A DNA stretch of 57,439 nucleotides, taken from Candidatus Gemmiger stercoravium (GTDB lineage: Bacteria > Bacillota > Clostridia > Oscillospirales > Ruminococcaceae). The notes below the pieces were generated by a model, which ran no database searches, had not been told where the DNA came from, and worked only from the letters and a program-made list of their open reading frames with translations. The DNA lies in contig DWWE01000032.1 of assembly GCA_019119835.1 (NCBI GenBank), forward strand, positions 1 to 57,439, given 5' to 3'. Shown piece after piece: positions 32,289 through 54,542 of this stretch (positions are counted from its first letter, which is position 1; each line of letters begins with the position of its first letter). The position numbers and the translations under genes were made by a program.

Positions 32289-32364
32289 TGCCGGCCCCGC
32301 CGGCAAAAAGGACGGACACGCCGGCGGGTTTGTCCCGACGCTTTGTGCCCGGGCGCCAGACAAC

Positions 32365-46593: not shown

Positions 46594-49287
46594 TCACAGC
46601 CAGGTGCGGAAGCGGCGCAGGTAGGCCGTTTTGGCCAGGCTCGCCAGCAGGATGTAGCCCGCCACGATGCCGGCCAGGGCGGCGAAGTAGCCCAGCGGCA
46701 GGGCGGTCAGCCCCAGCGCCGGGGCCAGCGGCGTGAAGGGCAGTGCGGTGGCCGCCGCGATGCCGGCCAGCGTCAGCACCGTGACCGGGGCCGAAGCGCG
46801 GCTCTGCACAAAGGGCAGCCGTGCGGTGCGGATCATGTGGATGACCAGCGTCTGGGTCCACATGGAGGCCACGAACCAGCCGGTCTGGAACAGGGCGATG
46901 AAGGCGTCCTGCGCATCAGGGGCCAGCTGCGCCGAAAACAGCCGGCCGCCGGTCGCCGCCGGGCAGAAGACGAAGTACATCACAAGGAAGGTCGCCCCAT
47001 CAAACACCGAACTGACCGGGCCGTTCCACAGCATGAACCGGCCGACGCCCCGGGCGTCCCAGCGGCAGGGCGAACGGAGATACTCCGGGTCCACATGATC
47101 CCAGGAGATGGCCGTGCAGGAAAGGTCGTACATCAGGTTCAGCAGGATCAGCTGCAGCGCCGTCATCGGCAGAAAAGGCAGGAAGGCGCTGGCCGCCAGC
47201 ACCGACAGCATGTTGCCGAAGTTGGAGGAGACGGTCATCTTGATGTACTTCATCATGTTGGCGTAGGTCTTGCGCCCTTCGATCAGGCCGCGCTCCAGCA
47301 CCATCAGATCTTTGTCCAGCAGCACGATGGAGGCGGACTCCTTGGCGATATCCACCGCCGTGTCCACCGAGATGCCCACGTCGGCAGCTTTCAGGGCCGC
47401 CGCATCGTTGATGCCGTCCCCCATGTAGCCGACGCTGTGGCCGTTCTGCTGCAGGGTCTGCAGCACCCGGGCTTTCTGCGCCGGGGAGAGTTTGGCGAAT
47501 ACCGCGACCTGCTCCGCCTGCCGGGCCAGTTCGGCGTCGTCCATCTCTTCCAGGTCCGCGCCCAGCAGGACCCGGTCGGCCGGCAGCCCGACCTGCGCAC
47601 AGATGGCGGCAGTGACCTTTTCGTTGTCGCCGGTCAGCACCTTGACCTGAACGCCGTAGGACTGCAGCGCCCGGATGGCGGCAGCCGCCGTGGGTTTGGG
47701 CGGGTCCAGAAAGGCCAGGAAACCGATGAGCACCATCTCCCGCTCATCCTCCGCCGAGAACTGCCCCACCGGGGCGGGGTCGTTCTTCTGGGCCACCGCA
47801 ATGACCCGCATCCCCTGGGCGTTCAGCCGGTCGGCCCGGGCCAGCACCTGCTCCCGCAGCGCTTCGGTCAGCGGCAGGACCCGGCCGCCCCGCTCCACCC
47901 AGGCGCAGCAGGCCAGCATTTCCTCCACCGCGCCCTTTGTCACCATCTGGGTCTTGCCGGTCGGGCCGCTGACCACCACGCTCATGCGGCGGCGTTCAAA
48001 GTCAAAGGGGACCTCGTCCACCTTGCAGTAGGTCTCGATCAGCCGCCCGGCCCCCTGCTCCCGCTGCTTTTCGATGACGGCCAGGTCGATGAGGTTTTTC
48101 AGCCCGGTCTGAAAATAGCTGTTCAGAAACGCATGGCGCAGCACCCGGTCGTCCGGGTTGCCGTCCACGTCCAGGTGGTATTCCAGCACCACCTTGTCCT
48201 GGGTCAGCGTACCGGTTTTGTCGGTGCAGAGGATGTCGATGGAGCCCAGGTTCTGGATGGCGTTGAGGTTCTTGATGATGACCTTTTTCCGGCTCATGGC
48301 CAGCGCGCCTTTGGCCAGCGAGGTGGTGACGATCATCGGCAGCATTTCGGGCGTCAGCCCCACGGCCACCGAGATGGCAAACAGCACCGCCTGCATCCAG
48401 TTGCCCTTGGTGAACCCGTTGAGCAGCAGGACCAGCGGCACCATGGCCGCCATAAAGCGGATCAGCAGCCGGGATACCGCCCCCATCCCCTTTTCGAAGG
48501 CAGTTTTGGGGGGCTTTTCCTCCAGCGTTCCGGCCATGCCGCCCAGCATGGTATCGCCGCCCACCGCGACCACCACGGCCCGGGCGCTGCCGCTGATCAC
48601 ATTGCTGCCCTGAAAGGCCAGGCAGGGCAGCTCGGTAAGCGGAGCGCTGGCGTCTGCCGCTTCGGCGGCGGACTTTTCCACCGGCTCGCTCTCCCCGGTC
48701 AGAGCCGACTGGCTGATGAACAGGTCCTTGGCGTTCAGGATGCGCAGATCCGCCGGGATCATATCCCCCGCCGCCAGATGGACGATGTCCCCCACGACCA
48801 GTTCTTCCATCGGGCGTTCCTGCTTCACGCCCCCGCGCTCCACACAGGCGGTCGTGTGGATCATGGCGGTGAGCTTGTCGGCCACGCTGCCGCTGCGGGT
48901 CTCCTGCACGAAGCGCAGTGCGCCCGACACCGCCACCATCACCCCGATGATACCCACCGTCATAAAGTTTTTCTCCCCGGGTTCCGCCAGCAGGATGTCG
49001 GTGACCACCGATACCGCCGCCAACAGCAGCAAAACCAGCGAGAAGGGATCGGCAAAGGCTTCCAGCAGCCGCCGGGCTGCCGGCTTGCGCTTGGTGTGTA
49101 CGATCCGGTTGGCGCCGCAGCGTTCCCGGGCGGCTTCGGCCTGCGCCTCGCTCAGCCCCGCAGGGGTGCTGTGCAGCCGGGCCAGCAGCCGGTCTTCCCG
49201 GTCGGCGGCCGCACGGCGCAGACCGGCCTGCACCGCACGGATTTTGGCGGGACGGTTGCCCGCACGGTTTTTGTTGAACATCTTCAT
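46594..49287 (-). CDS. mgtA: Magnesium-transporting P-type ATPase (MgtA, P3B)
   Basis: An 897-residue ion pump importing Mg2+ under limitation. It has a cytosolic N-terminal extension, an actuator domain with [11 protein letters not shown] (TGES), the phosphorylation motif [13 protein letters not shown], the nucleotide domain with [20 protein letters not shown] and [20 protein letters not shown], and ten predicted membrane helices; [17 protein letters not shown] is the MgtA-type ion-site segment. The start ATG (49285-49287) has GGGAGGTACAGAC upstream. A long leader (49288-49893) with an M-box riboswitch controls it. Confidence 0.96.
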
Positions 49288-49356
49288 GTCTGTACCTCCC
49301 ATCAGGTCTGTGATGAATGGGAAAAGGTACAGTGCCTGCGGCAGACCGGCCCCGCC

Positions 49357-50060: not shown

Positions 50061-50101
50061 AAAGTGTCCGTTTTTGCGACACTTTGGGGAAATTGTCCCA
50101 A
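50061..50101. promoter_or_regulatory. Candidate operators upstream of the first TetR-family gene
   Basis: Two adjacent inverted repeats: AAAGTGTC-9 nt-GACACTTT (50061-50085) and TTGGGGAAATTGTCCCAA (50084-50101). The second contains GGGACAATTTCCC on the minus strand, nearly the same as GGGACAATTCCC at 51992-52003 in the radical SAM intergenic region. Confidence 0.5.
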
Positions 50102-50212: not shown

Positions 50213-50773
50213 GTGGCGGATTCCAACATCACCAAACGGGCATTGGCGACAGCGCTCAAAGACCTGCTGGCCGACCGTCCGTTTTCAAAGATCAGCGTGG
50301 GAGATATCTGCGAAGCCTGCGGCATGAGCCGCAAGAGTTTCTACTACCATTTCCAGGATAAATACGAGTTGCTGAACTGGATCTTTTTTACCGAATTTGT
50401 GTCCCGCATCCGCACCGGCGAGGAGGAGAACGCCTGGATGCTGATGGCCGCGCTCTGCGATTACTTTTATGAAAACCGCGGCTTTTACCGCCGCGCCTTC
50501 GAGGTGGAGGGGCAGAATTCCTTCTGCGAGTATTTCCGCGAGATCCTGGGGGTGCTGCTGCAAAGTGAGATGGAGATGATCTTTGGCAGTGAGGAGGACA
50601 TTGCCTTCTGTACGGATTTTTACCTGGACGCCCTGACCAGCTCGGTCCGCCGTTGGCTGAAAGCCCGGGAACCGGTCTCCGCCGCGGTGTATGTGCGGCA
50701 GCTGCGCCGCTGCATCATGGCGGTGTCCCGCCGGGTGCTGGACAAATACCAGCAGGACGCGGACGGCGAATGA
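50213..50773 (+). CDS. TetR/AcrR-family regulator (DhaS-like)
   Basis: A 186-residue protein. The N-terminal TetR helix-turn-helix is clear: TKRALATALKDLLADRPFSKISVGDICEACGMSRKSFYYHFQDKYELL (shown here by its ends; residues 8-55). The C-terminal ligand domain is of the type found in DhaS-like regulators. GTG start at 50213 behind GGGGAGG. Inverted repeats sit upstream of its own promoter, and one of these is shared with the radical SAM pair next door, so it may control them; the inducer is unknown. Confidence 0.88.
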   Translation: MADSNITKRALATALKDLLADRPFSKISVGDICEACGMSRKSFYYHFQDKYELLNWIFFTEFVSRIRTGEEENAWMLMAALCDYFYENRGFYRRAFEVEGQNSFCEYFREILGVLLQSEMEMIFGSEEDIAFCTDFYLDALTSSVRRWLKAREPVSAAVYVRQLRRCIMAVSRRVLDKYQQDADGE

Positions 50774-50879: not shown

Positions 50880-51899
50880 TCACAGCCGGCAGGCCGGCCG
50901 GGCGCGCTGCAGGATCTCCCCCAGGCCGGCGCAGAACAGGTTGCAGCCCGGGTCCCCGGCCCGGGCAGACGCCCCCCGCAGCGAACCGCTGCCGTCAAAG
51001 GCAGCCGGCTGCGGGGCTCCCTCGCCGCCGATCGACCGGGTGATGAAGGCCACGTCCCGCCGCAGGTCCACCGGCACCACCGGGCAGGTCTGGCAGGCGC
51101 GCAGCCGGCATATATACTGATACAGGGCGTCCGCCTCGGCAGGCGGGCAATCCTCCGCCGCTTCCAGAAAGAGGAACAGTGGATGCTGTTCCGCCAGGGC
51201 GGAAAGCCAGCCGCCGGCCAGGACCGGCGCCGCCCGGTGGCAGGTGCTGTACACCGCATAGGGGAACCGGGCACGGCGCAGACGCCGGCAGGCGGCCGGA
51301 ACTCCGGCCGGCGCCGCCTCTGCCCGGACAGCCACCAGCACATTGGGGGCGCCGGCCAGCGCCTGCAGCGCCGTTTCGGTGATGGCAGGGGGATCCAGCA
51401 GCAGCACAAAAGCGCCGTTCTCCACCACAGGGGGCAGCGCCAGCACGGCCGCCGGGTCCCCCTGAGGCCGCAGCAGAAAGGTGTGGATGCCAAGCGCGGC
51501 CGCCTCCCGCAGCAGCGCCGGGTAGCGGACGGCGCCGCCGGGGATGCTGCTGTCCACCGACAGGTCCAGCGCCCAGGGCACCGGGTCCCGGCCGGCGCGG
51601 CCGCGGGCCCGCTGGGCCCCTTTTGCGCAGCTCTCGTAACCAAGATTCACCCCGAACTGCAGCAGCCGTTCATGGTCCACATGGGCCAGGGCATCCCGCG
51701 CCAGAGCATAGTAAGCGCTGTCCGGTTTTCGGAGCATCCGCTGCACGGTGGTCAGCAGCTGCCGCTGGACCGGCCCCCGGGTAAGCGCCAGCCCCATATC
51801 CACAAGGTTGCGGGTGGCCCGGTCGGGCGCATGGATCCCCCGATCCAGGGCCCGGCGCACCGTGGCTTCGATCAGCCGGCGGGACAGATCCTTTTGCAT
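50880..51899 (-). CDS. Radical SAM-like protein lacking the cluster cysteines (pseudo-enzyme paralog)
   Basis: A 339-residue protein with no obvious family motif. By eye it aligns along nearly its whole length with the intact radical SAM protein encoded divergently: an N-terminal helical domain of the same size, VPWALDLSVDSS (107-118) against VPWAILLDPTSA, QGDP (146-149) against GGEP, a GAFVLLL...ITETALQAL block against CEFLCFTNGTLIDEAFCREML, FPYAVYSTC against LPFGVSTC. The Cys-x3-Cys-x2-Cys motif is missing: its place holds SSIPGGA. It does keep other cysteines (251, 264, 269, 272, 319, 323). It therefore should not cleave SAM; a partner, chaperone or regulatory role is inferred. The ATG at 51897-51899 has AGAAAGGAGG upstream. 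Confidence 0.65.
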   Translation of the reverse strand: MQKDLSRRLIEATVRRALDRGIHAPDRATRNLVDMGLALTRGPVQRQLLTTVQRMLRKPDSAYYALARDALAHVDHERLLQFGVNLGYESCAKGAQRARGRAGRDPVPWALDLSVDSSIPGGAVRYPALLREAAALGIHTFLLRPQGDPAAVLALPPVVENGAFVLLLDPPAITETALQALAGAPNVLVAVRAEAAPAGVPAACRRLRRARFPYAVYSTCHRAAPVLAGGWLSALAEQHPLFLFLEAAEDCPPAEADALYQYICRLRACQTCPVVPVDLRRDVAFITRSIGGEGAPQPAAFDGSGSLRGASARAGDPGCNLFCAGLGEILQRARPACRL

Positions 51900-51991
51900 G
51901 GCGGCGCCTCCTTTCTGCCGGGATTCCCGCCGGGAAAGGCGGGTGCGCTTTCTTTCAGTCTTACCATAACGCAACCGCCGCCGAAAGAAAA

Positions 51992-52045
51992 GGGACAATT
52001 CCCGCCGTATGTCCCAAAAGAGAACGGTTCGCAGCCGCTGTCCCA
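51992..52045. promoter_or_regulatory. Candidate operator cluster between the divergent radical SAM genes
   Basis: GGGACAATTCCC (51992-52003), then TGTCCCAAAAG (52010-52020), which pairs as an inverted repeat with the first GGGACA, then TGTCCCA again (52039-52045). The same GGGACAATT motif appears upstream of the nearby tetR gene. Confidence 0.45.
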
Positions 52046-52175
52046 TTTTTGCCCAACCGGCGTTTGCTGCCCCATGACGGGGACGGCCCGCCGTATTAGG
52101 ATGAAGCTGTGAGGCCCGAACGGCCTCGCAGCGGTTCTATACCGTGCAGATCAGAAGAAGCGAGGGAACCTGAAT

Positions 52176-53528
52176 ATGGGAATTACCGACAAAGTTAAAA
52201 ACGCGGCGCTGGCCGCTGTGATCAACCAGGGACTTGCCTATCTGGAAAAGGACCCGGAGCAGAACATCCCGAAACTGATGGCCCTGGTGGATAAGGTCGT
52301 GCCGGCAGACTGGTACACCGCCCAGCGCAAGGCCTTCCGCACCGCCATTGCCGAGAAAAACAACTGGTACCAGCTTATGATGCGTGCCTATCAGCTGGAC
52401 CCCGGCGTGCGGCGGACCTTCTTCCAGAATTTCATCATCAACGCCAGCCTGCAGGGCAGCGCCACGCAGGATGAGATCTCGGCCAAAGAGAACTGCAATG
52501 TGCCCTGGGCCATCCTGCTGGACCCCACCAGCGCCTGCAACATGCACTGCACCGGCTGCTGGGCAGCCGAATACGGCAACCGGCTGAACCTGAGCTACGA
52601 GGACCTGGATTCCATCGTGAGCCAGGGCAAACAGCTCGGCACTTATATGTATATCTTCACCGGCGGCGAGCCGCTGGTGCGCAAGGCGGACATCCTGAAG
52701 CTCTGCGAAGCCCATCCCGACTGCGAATTTCTCTGCTTTACCAATGGGACCCTAATCGACGAGGCGTTCTGCCGGGAGATGCTGCGGGTCAAGAACTTCG
52801 TGCCGGCCATCAGCCTGGAAGGCTTTGAGGAAGCCAACGACGGCCGCCGGGGCGAGGGCGACTATGCCAAGGTGATGGCGGCCATGAAGCTGCTCCGGGA
52901 GAACCGGCTGCCCTTCGGCGTGTCCACCTGCTACACCAGCGCCAACTGCGCCGATGTGAGCAGCGAAGCCTATTTTGACGACATCATCGAAGCCGGCGCC
53001 TTCTTCGTCTGGTTCTTCCACTACATGCCGGTGGGCTCGGGTGCCGTCCCCGCCCTGCTGCCCAGCCCCGAACAGCGGACCGAGATGTACCGGCGCATCC
53101 GCGCTTTCCGCCAGAGCAAGCCGATCTTCTCCATCGACTTCCAGAACGACGCCGAGTATGTGGGCGGCTGCATTGCCGGCGGCCGACGCTACCTGCATAT
53201 CAACGCCCGGGGCGATGTGGAGCCCTGCGTCTTCATCCACTATTCCAATGTGAACATCCATCAGTCCACCCTGCTGGACGCCCTGAAGAGCCCGCTGTTC
53301 ATGGCCTATCACGACGGCCAGCCCTTCAACCAGAACATGCTGCGTCCCTGCCCGATGCTGGAAAATCCCGAACGGCTGCGCGAGATGGTCCGGCAGACCG
53401 GCGCCCGCTCCACCGACTATGAATCGCCGGAGGATGTGGAGGTTCTCTGCGACCGCACCACCCCTTATGCGGCGGCCTGGCAGCCCACCGCCGACCGGCT
53501 CTGGGCGGAAAGCGGCAAGAAGGCGTGA
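52176..53528 (+). CDS. Radical SAM protein
   Basis: A 450-residue enzyme. A helical N-terminal domain (residues 1-100) precedes the radical SAM barrel with the cluster motif CNMHCTGC at 121-128 (Cys-x3-Cys-x2-Cys), the GGEP block at 163-166, and SLEGFEEANDGRRG. The C-terminal part carries further cysteines (GGCIAGGRRYLHINARGDVEPC, about 330-351, and LRPCPML near 392), the pattern of SPASM/twitch auxiliary-cluster domains seen in peptide- and carbohydrate-modifying enzymes. No peptide precursor gene was found nearby. GAAGCGAGGG lies upstream of the ATG. Divergent from its apparent cluster-less paralog. Confidence 0.88.
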   Translation: MGITDKVKNAALAAVINQGLAYLEKDPEQNIPKLMALVDKVVPADWYTAQRKAFRTAIAEKNNWYQLMMRAYQLDPGVRRTFFQNFIINASLQGSATQDEISAKENCNVPWAILLDPTSACNMHCTGCWAAEYGNRLNLSYEDLDSIVSQGKQLGTYMYIFTGGEPLVRKADILKLCEAHPDCEFLCFTNGTLIDEAFCREMLRVKNFVPAISLEGFEEANDGRRGEGDYAKVMAAMKLLRENRLPFGVSTCYTSANCADVSSEAYFDDIIEAGAFFVWFFHYMPVGSGAVPALLPSPEQRTEMYRRIRAFRQSKPIFSIDFQNDAEYVGGCIAGGRRYLHINARGDVEPCVFIHYSNVNIHQSTLLDALKSPLFMAYHDGQPFNQNMLRPCPMLENPERLREMVRQTGARSTDYESPEDVEVLCDRTTPYAAAWQPTADRLWAESGKKA

Positions 53529-53785: not shown

Positions 53786-54415
53786 TCAGTCGGGCTGCCG
53801 GGCAACGCCAAACAGCGTCAGGTTCAAAAGTTCTTCCGCCACCTGGAACAGCGAATGGACATCCTGGACCGGCGTTCCGGTTTCCGCCCGATACTGGGCG
53901 GCCAGCTGCCAAAAGTAGGTGTTGACGCATTCCAGGTACCGGGTGACCTTTTCGCCGCTCAGCCCCGGCCGCAGCGTCATCCGTGCGGCGATCGCATGAA
54001 AAAAGCGCTGGTTGACCTCGTACAGCGGCCTGTGCAGCGTATGGATCGCCTCGGCCAGCTGCCGGGGCGGGCGGAGCAAGGCGGTCTCAAAGATCAGTTT
54101 CTGCTGCGGGTTGCGCTGGAAATAGTCCTCCCGCAGCAGGCAGAAATCCCGGACCGCATACAGGGTCTCTTCCTCCGCCAAAGACGGAGCCCGGGATTCG
54201 ATCTCCTTTTGCAGCTGCGAGAAGATGGTCCCCACACAAAGCAAAAACAGCTCATCCTTGTTGGAATAGTAGTGGTACATCATCCCCTTGGAGATGCCGT
54301 GCCGTGCGCAGATGTTTTCCATCGAAACTGCATCGTATCCACGGGTGCCGAACTCTTCCATGGCCGCCCGCAGAATCTCACGCCGGCTGCGTTCCTGCCT
54401 TTCCTTTTGTGTCAT
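53786..54415 (-). CDS. TetR/AcrR-family regulator
   Basis: A 209-residue repressor. The TetR helix-turn-helix is plain: RREILRAAMEEFGTRGYDAVSMENICARHGISKGMMYHYYSNKDELF (residues 10-56, given by its core). The C-terminal domain is all helical, of the type that binds small hydrophobic inducers. ATG at 54413-54415, with GGAGGGAGG about 12 nt upstream. Two operator-like repeats (54565-54617) flank the promoter of the transcript that carries it, arguing for autoregulation. A 54-codon ORF overlaps its start by 38 nt. Confidence 0.9.
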   Translation of the reverse strand: MTQKERQERSRREILRAAMEEFGTRGYDAVSMENICARHGISKGMMYHYYSNKDELFLLCVGTIFSQLQKEIESRAPSLAEEETLYAVRDFCLLREDYFQRNPQQKLIFETALLRPPRQLAEAIHTLHRPLYEVNQRFFHAIAARMTLRPGLSGEKVTRYLECVNTYFWQLAAQYRAETGTPVQDVHSLFQVAEELLNLTLFGVARQPD

Positions 54416-54542
54416 GGTGGATGCTGCCTCCCTCCGCCTGGTGCAATTCACCGGCCCATTCAAAGCCCTTCTTGGCCATAAACACCGCAATGATCTCATT
54501 GATCACCGCCGCGGCTGCGATGGTCCCCTGGTAGACAGTCAT
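54378..54542 (-). CDS. Small hydrophobic protein co-transcribed with the TetR gene (54 residues)
   Basis: ATG at 54540-54542 behind a very good TTAAGGAGGGAC site; begins MTVYQGTIAAAAVINEIIAV and contains one predicted membrane helix (about residues 5-22), then a polar tail. It is the first ORF after the operator-flanked promoter and overlaps the tetR start in another frame, so it may be needed for tetR translation or be the regulated product. I do not recognise the family. The MTVY start recalls some small holin-like toxins, but the rest does not match. Confidence 0.5.
   Translation of the reverse strand: MTVYQGTIAAAAVINEIIAVFMAKKGFEWAGELHQAEGGSIHHDTKGKAGTQPA

Follow-up and report, generated by a model that had tools for sequence, protein, structure and literature searches.

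A cluster-less radical SAM paralogue linked to a DhaS-type TetR regulator and an operator-like palindrome in Clostridia

In the window analyzed here, a 57,439-nucleotide stretch of Candidatus Gemmiger stercoravium (contig DWWE01000032.1), a gene for a radical S-adenosylmethionine (SAM) enzyme stands beside a gene for a paralogue of that enzyme. Our results show that the product of the second gene (positions 50880–51899) is a true radical SAM superfamily pseudoenzyme, which has kept the fold but no longer has the SAM/cluster site or the enzyme's C-terminal cysteines. Comparison of related loci, in which the site and the gene linkage were observed directly, suggests its membership in a small local regulon characterized by the palindrome GGACA-N12-TGTCC and a DhaS-type TetR regulator. 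We tentatively favor a role for the paralogue as a non-catalytic co-regulator or sensor of this TetR, which would bind the palindrome; with slightly more reserve, we propose that a radical SAM fold stripped of its iron–sulphur sites was recruited as a sensor or co-regulator subunit of DhaS-type TetRs across Clostridia. The first-pass annotation of this DNA had offered a heterodimer, a chaperone, or a regulator as possible roles; the evidence now leans toward regulation without proving it, and the TetR gene and operator-like site, absent from that annotation, are additions of the present analysis. The main features are as follows.

50880..51899, minus strand: pseudo-radical-SAM protein, 339 aa (open reading frame, ORF; profile, fold, and alignment evidence)
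52176..53528, plus strand: radical SAM enzyme, 450 aa, CX3CX2C (Pfam, alignment)
51900..52175, no strand: divergent control region common to both genes, 276 bp from start codon to start codon (ORF coordinates)
51993..52014, no strand: operator-like palindrome GGACA-N12-TGTCC, exact, GGACAATTCCCGCCGTATGTCC (pattern search of the window, locus comparison)
50213..50773, plus strand: TetR regulator of DhaS type, TetR_N plus TetR_C_8 (Pfam, PDB sequence matches)
50077..50098, no strand: second operator-like site, one mismatch, CGACA-N12-TGTCC, 5′ of the TetR gene (pattern search)

Direct BLASTP comparison of the two window proteins gave an E-value of 0.003, which is weak alone, and homology was decided by profiles: paralogue and enzyme aligned over 332 columns with a profile–profile E-value of 1e-38, so that the full-length relationship first noticed by eye is now established. 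The AlphaFold model of the paralogue (pTM 0.88) likewise bears out the expected common fold, with radical SAM enzymes as its best structural matches and the radical SAM/SPASM maturases SkfB, SuiB, anSME, and PqqE as its neighbors among solved structures. Its architecture comprises a helical N-terminal domain, a (beta/alpha)6 partial barrel, and a remnant C-terminal scaffold, with the cluster cysteines absent. The solved structures nearest the 450-residue enzyme by sequence are SkfB, anSME, and SuiB; Pfam detects Radical_SAM in it (7e-17), with SPASM marginally short of the cut-off, and we read its C-terminal residues C332, C351, and C392 as putative auxiliary, twitch/SPASM-like cysteines.

A pattern scan of 84,980 species genomes with the broad paralogue alignment A3 returned 160 paralogue relatives, and the best 80 of these, which we examined, came mostly from Lachnospiraceae, Oscillospiraceae, and unclassified Clostridia. 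We annotated 126 loci in all (46 + 80), 125 of them with a paralogue longer than 240 aa, and removal of 11 duplicates left 114 distinct loci. Residues were counted in an alignment of these 114 paralogues and the 59 enzymes linked to them. The CX3CX2C cysteines, all three present in 59/59 enzymes, were missing to the last one from 114/114 paralogues, extending to homologues the loss seen in the window, and the loop that holds them showed the same distribution. The SAM-binding GGEP motif was present in every enzyme and in no paralogue, whether at the corresponding alignment position or anywhere else in the sequence. Enzyme residues C252, C332, C351, and C392 were each found in 59/59 enzymes and were retained in 1, 0, 1, and 0 of the 114 paralogues, respectively, and W64 (58/59 enzymes) was replaced by Tyr in 113/114. 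A CX3CX2C string in the paralogue of locus L118 lies ~240 residues into the protein, off the cluster site, and was rejected as a cluster motif. The paralogues retain N85 (110/114), G94 (114/114), and W111 (108/114).

The constraint pattern is inverted between the two proteins. Over 600 random pairs per group, mean pairwise identity among the paralogues was 0.47 (N-terminal domain) and 0.29 (barrel), compared to 0.45 and 0.70, respectively, for the enzyme. In an unrooted tree made by a quick method from 60 of the 114 paralogues (similarity filter, maximum 60) and 22 of the 59 enzymes, a single branch with SH-aLRT 100 split the two groups. The window paralogue matched no Pfam or NCBIfam family, and the paralogue alignments A1 and A3 matched neither the pseudo-SAM model TIGR04347 nor any other NCBIfam model at E ≤ 0.01; searches with relatives gave only three stray single-member matches to Pfam or NCBIfam (E 0.02–0.09).

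The two window genes lie head to head on a 276-bp control region, as originally annotated, and this region contains the exact palindrome. Five window sites matched the pattern with at most one mismatch, compared to 1.6 expected, and 2 of 100 shuffles reached five; therefore, the window alone would not prove the site. We then counted sites in the 350 bp upstream and first 60 gene bases of 110 of the 114 paralogues (those with enough upstream sequence), 59 enzymes, and 78 TetR genes, where one site at a divergent locus counts for both genes, the loci are related, and draws are not independent. Exact sites were found for 41/110 paralogues, 29/59 enzymes, and 25/78 TetRs, compared to 0.0, 0.05, and 0.0 expected from 20 dinucleotide shuffles. 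Among other spacings from 4 to 20, exact matches occurred only at 11 (1 paralogue) and 19 (5 paralogues, 2 enzymes). The position is also narrow, with 41 of the 42 sites before paralogues falling 76–143 bp ahead of the start. Relaxing the search to at most one mismatch, over 300 bp upstream, gave counts of 59/110, 42/59, and 33/78 (1.3, 0.3, and 0.3 expected from simple shuffles), and control spacings of 10, 11, 13, and 14 gave 0–7. The sites have T-rich flanks on both sides; the extended pattern matched 0–4 times per genome in eight genomes searched genome-wide, each palindrome counting twice, compared to 0–1 for a reversed control. On this sequence evidence, we infer that the TetR probably binds GGACA-N12-TGTCC.

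Some matches lie away from these genes. Four of the five off-module sites examined (L203, L204, L206, L218) are internal to long ORFs and were dismissed as chance matches. The fifth (L211, 1503; G006:C83:4058-4083), TTGGACA...TGTCCC before an ABC-transporter ATPase-like frame, may mark an extra regulon member. Another exact copy in the window (32314–32335), seemingly intergenic and after an acetyltransferase-like frame, reflects either chance or an additional target. The 1.5-kb flanks of 30 DhaK loci in the family contained no DhaS-type TetR, and the one exact site there (L238) had no TetR; these loci lent the operator no support.

Among PDB sequences, the window TetR is matched best by 4mk6 (a probable regulator of dihydroxyacetone kinase, 6.8e-19) and by DhaS 2iu5 (6.7e-15); its gene is convergent with the pseudo-radical-SAM gene. 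This arrangement recurs: a TetR scoring at least 204 bits lies within 3 kb of the paralogue in 78/114 loci, and 77 of these 78 TetR genes lie 3′ of the paralogue gene in tail-to-tail orientation. The TetR is the steadier neighbor, being linked to the paralogue at more loci than the enzyme. A TetR but no enzyme was found in 28 loci, and an enzyme but no TetR in 9. To extend the count to whole genomes, we scored 297 genomes of the family with the TetR profile A4 (E ≤ 1e-45) and the enzyme profile A2 (E ≤ 1e-100), and found the paralogue in 31, the TetR in 30, and the enzyme in 34. Paralogue and TetR occurred together in 25 genomes, paralogue only in 6, TetR only in 5, and neither in 261 (odds ratio 217, Fisher p 6e-26, kinship ignored); for paralogue and enzyme, the corresponding numbers were 18, 13, 16, and 250 (odds ratio 22, Fisher p 7e-12, again ignoring kinship). 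These two odds ratios are biased toward the TetR because the profiles and cut-offs differ, A4 having been built only from paralogue-adjacent TetRs and A2 from enzymes with and without a paralogue. The only fair comparison is that on the carrier side, which the profile bias touches less: of the 31 carriers, 25 have the TetR and 18 the enzyme, with 12 having the TetR only and 5 the enzyme only. The 2×2 tables were made by hand; A3 matches of 123–144 bits that scored far higher as enzyme (G180, G267, G042, G114, G203, G317, and the second match of G160) were not counted as carriers, and G008 and G010 (A1 and A3) and G097 (A1 only, 88.6 bits) were. In seven carriers, the TetR is on another contig rather than beside the paralogue (G140, G254, G176, G298, G245, G069, G097).

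Mirror-tree analysis of 50 three-gene loci gave a partial rank correlation of 0.62 (bootstrap 0.41–0.76) for paralogue and TetR given the enzyme, compared to 0.36 (0.21–0.53) for paralogue and enzyme given the TetR and 0.37 for TetR and enzyme given the paralogue, with the first value exceeding the second in just 89% of 300 bootstraps. In a TetR tree built by a quick method with long-branch warnings, TetRs from loci with and without the enzyme were intermixed. Seven TetR-like neighbors chosen by eye from the nine enzyme-only genus loci (L038-L046) were included; six of these, from beside an enzyme without a paralogue, group in a single distant clade, and the remaining one (L046) is on a long branch of unsure placement.

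Several observations weigh against a regulatory role of the paralogue, in addition to the biased odds ratios, the 89% bootstrap figure, and the lack of a kinship correction in any of the counts. A TetR was missing within 3 kb in 36/114 loci, some of which are contig ends. The short-type paralogues of the window genus (L021, L023-L035) pair with another TetR group, and among these loci only L032 and L033 contain an exact site anywhere. The TetR occurs without the paralogue in 5/30 genomes, and at L263, where the paralogue is absent, an operator-like site lies between the TetR and ATPase genes; therefore, the TetR can act without the paralogue. The paralogue gene itself stands behind an operator-like site and thus may be a mere target. 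Finally, within the window genus, all 16 of 16 paralogue genomes also have the enzyme (thresholds 1e-3 and 1e-30).

That last result suits an older idea, namely that the dead paralogue binds the active enzyme, as a prozyme-like heterodimer partner that activates it or as a chaperone that presents substrate. The full-length homology is in keeping with such a complex, and so is gene order. The enzyme lies within 3 kb of the paralogue in 56/114 loci and within 6 kb in 59/114, of which 38 have it upstream and divergent, 18 in the same orientation (in Catenibacillus scindens, L190, with a gap of 28 bp), and 3 downstream on the opposite strand. Outside the genus, however, obligate co-occurrence fails: the divergent arrangement is frequent at enzyme-linked loci, but the pairing is looser than the first-pass annotation supposed. 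The enzyme was sought in 32 of the 44 carriers then known, comprising all 28 from outside the genus and 4 of its 16; 12 of the 32 had no such enzyme at E ≤ 1e-60, and 10 of these 12 are among the 25 near-complete genomes (≥90% complete, ≤5% contaminated). The genus survey found the enzyme in the 12 remaining genus carriers. Conversely, the paralogue is missing from 9 enzyme-bearing genomes of the genus and from 16 of the 34 in the family sample. In Anaerofilum sp. An201 (L101 = L125), the paralogue and TetR are open, and the enzyme's place is held by a short ORF that by eye starts like the enzyme N-terminus and runs into a SAM-synthetase (metK) relic (E 2e-15), although an enzyme copy exists elsewhere in the genome (G167:C1). 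A role as an enzyme subunit is thus less likely than one as a sensor or co-regulator, and we regard it as improbable. Decay of a pseudogene or a gene-prediction artefact might be suspected from the weak direct BLASTP score and from the sole broken homologue noticed, in which the paralogue is split into two ORFs (L189, 550-1587; dropped from the counts). This explanation is hardly credible given the confident fold prediction, the absence of internal stops from 18 paralogue matches in 35 genus genomes, and dN/dS values of 0.078–0.209 in all 63 close pairs of paralogue relatives kept of 64 filtered. These pairs are non-independent, represent two genomes twice (L101/L125, L100/L131), and exclude the window paralogue, whose nearest relative is 48% identical; the paralogue values are near the TetR level and above the enzyme level where computable for both. 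Purifying selection on the cluster-less member, named as a check in the first-pass annotation, is therefore seen among its relatives, and for the family it speaks against a decaying single-genome pseudogene.

Harder to separate from a co-regulator is an effector of the same regulon, in which the paralogue would be a TetR target that does no catalysis and instead binds or carries a lipid, peptide, or intermediate, and the TetR would sense the signal. Together with the phospholipase, ATPase, or MMPL transporter encoded nearby, the paralogue would then serve a response of the envelope or membrane. The operator-like site before the paralogue is what this model predicts, and the gene neighborhood agrees with it. 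A patatin-like phospholipase gene lies within 3 kb of the paralogue in 13/114 loci, on the same strand every time, and its ORF overlaps the end of the paralogue ORF by 4 nt in L095 (4777-6746) and L144 (4987-6860), which suggests translational coupling. An MMPL-type transporter gene is beside the DhaS-type TetR and/or the paralogue in L118, L122, L163, and L265. Of 11 matches to related TetRs on plasmid records, we viewed four loci, none with an operator-like site; three adjoin a P-type ATPase, oleate hydratase, or MMPL gene, and the fourth none of these. Together, the phospholipase, MMPL transporter, and P-type ATPase neighbors point to the cell envelope. By itself, however, the effector model leaves unexplained why the TetR is retained more often than the enzyme (25 compared to 18 of 31 carriers) and why the mirror-tree correlations differ, although a regulator–target pair could also yield both. 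We consider it somewhat unlikely.

For the co-regulator model, a possible mechanism is that the N-terminal helical domain, the better-conserved part, docks onto the TetR or onto a partner common to both, that the barrel, which diverges quickly, recognizes a ligand akin to the substrate or product of the enzyme, and that the complex sets transcription of the enzyme and of the paralogue itself and, in relatives, also of the cation ATPase, patatin-like phospholipase, or MMPL transporter. The inverted constraint fits an N-terminal domain that holds a partner and a barrel that adapts to a ligand; modulation of the TetR is inferred by analogy with DhaQ, to which we return below.

Beyond these genes, the window contains one further candidate for the regulon.

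46594..49302, minus strand: cation-transporting P-type ATPase (Pfam; neighborhood of other loci)

This ATPase is possibly a member of the same regulon, as its family is found near the TetR in many other loci, and no operator-like site with up to one mismatch was found between its start and the 50077 site. A profile of the window ATPase scored above 40 bits in 26 of the 80 named loci, and several of the lower-scoring matches are probably other P-type ATPases. On the Lacticaseibacillus paracasei plasmid pAO44 (L252, typed conjugative), a DhaS-type TetR gene is preceded by an oppositely oriented gene for a cation P-type ATPase; these are the same two gene kinds as beside the window paralogue, without the operator-like site. 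A second TetR-family gene in the window (53786-54499, minus strand), 3′ of the enzyme, matches TetR_N and has no TetR_C_8 match. One genome of the same genus (G006) carries three paralogue copies (L019, L020, L021), two of window type and one of short type, and in one of its three loci a patatin gene separates the paralogue from the enzyme. A SAM synthetase (MetK) gene is directly downstream of the enzyme in L098 (3057-5615) and, without a paralogue, in L048 and L061-L063; in L098 and L061 (1486-4001) it adjoins or overlaps the enzyme end, as if providing a private SAM supply. In L161 and L183 it follows the enzyme at ~1.5 kb on the same strand, and in L141 and L145 it precedes the enzyme in opposite orientation. 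These SAM synthetase neighbors fit an active SAM-using enzyme.

If the favored co-regulator model is correct, a relative of the enzyme would signal the status of the pathway at the promoter. Retention of the paralogue in many species, usually near a TetR gene and often behind an operator-like site, suggests the reuse of a dead enzyme in gene control rather than chemistry. The paralogue family, with 160 relatives in the scanned genomes, is not covered by any Pfam or NCBIfam model (E ≤ 0.01), and the operator together with the linked phospholipase, cation ATPase, MMPL transporter, and SAM synthetase genes offers a handle on the substrate of a radical SAM enzyme of gut Clostridia.

Regulatory pseudoenzymes are well known in several fold families. 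In contrast to the maturases SkfB, SuiB, anSME, and PqqE, the paralogue lacks cluster-binding cysteines; no precursor-peptide gene was identified, although no systematic search was made. NCBIfam TIGR04347 resembles it by name, as a radical SAM relative without a radical SAM site, but does not match it. To our knowledge, no dead enzyme partner accompanies FarR–FarE of Staphylococcus aureus, which is similar in that a TetR stands beside an exporter reportedly of MMPL/RND kind, as in L118 and L163. For FarR–FarE, a term search of PMC10019231 returned no instance of operator, palindrome, or DhaS. Catalytically dead paralogues kept with an active enzyme include the trypanosome AdoMetDC prozyme and other dead-paralogue activators, according to excerpts of PMC5201418; there, the pair forms the enzyme, whereas the paralogue here occurs also without one. 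In a literature search confined to result listings and covering few subscription journals, no described radical SAM pseudoenzyme acting in transcription came up, nor did this system appear under a lipid role, DhaQ/DhaS, or pseudo-SAM proteins. Thus, regulating dead paralogues are known; we met none that is built on a radical SAM fold and combined with such an operator and gene neighborhood, and that combination is apparently new.

The closest parallel is DhaQ, which is said to be a dead DhaK paralogue working with DhaS in Lactococcus lactis. There, as here, a DhaS-type TetR_C_8 regulator stands beside the dead paralogue of an enzyme. The DhaS operator is reportedly GGACACAT-N6-ATTTGTCC; if so, the half-sites GGACA and TGTCC with 12 bases between them are common to both systems. 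DhaS and DhaQ are named as transcription factors of a DhaKLM operon in PMC10746215, and the entry for DhaS (2IU5) in a table of PMC12647141 gives its role as dihydroxyacetone kinase activator. Unlike in that system, the dead partner in the Clostridia loci has a radical SAM fold rather than that of a dihydroxyacetone kinase.

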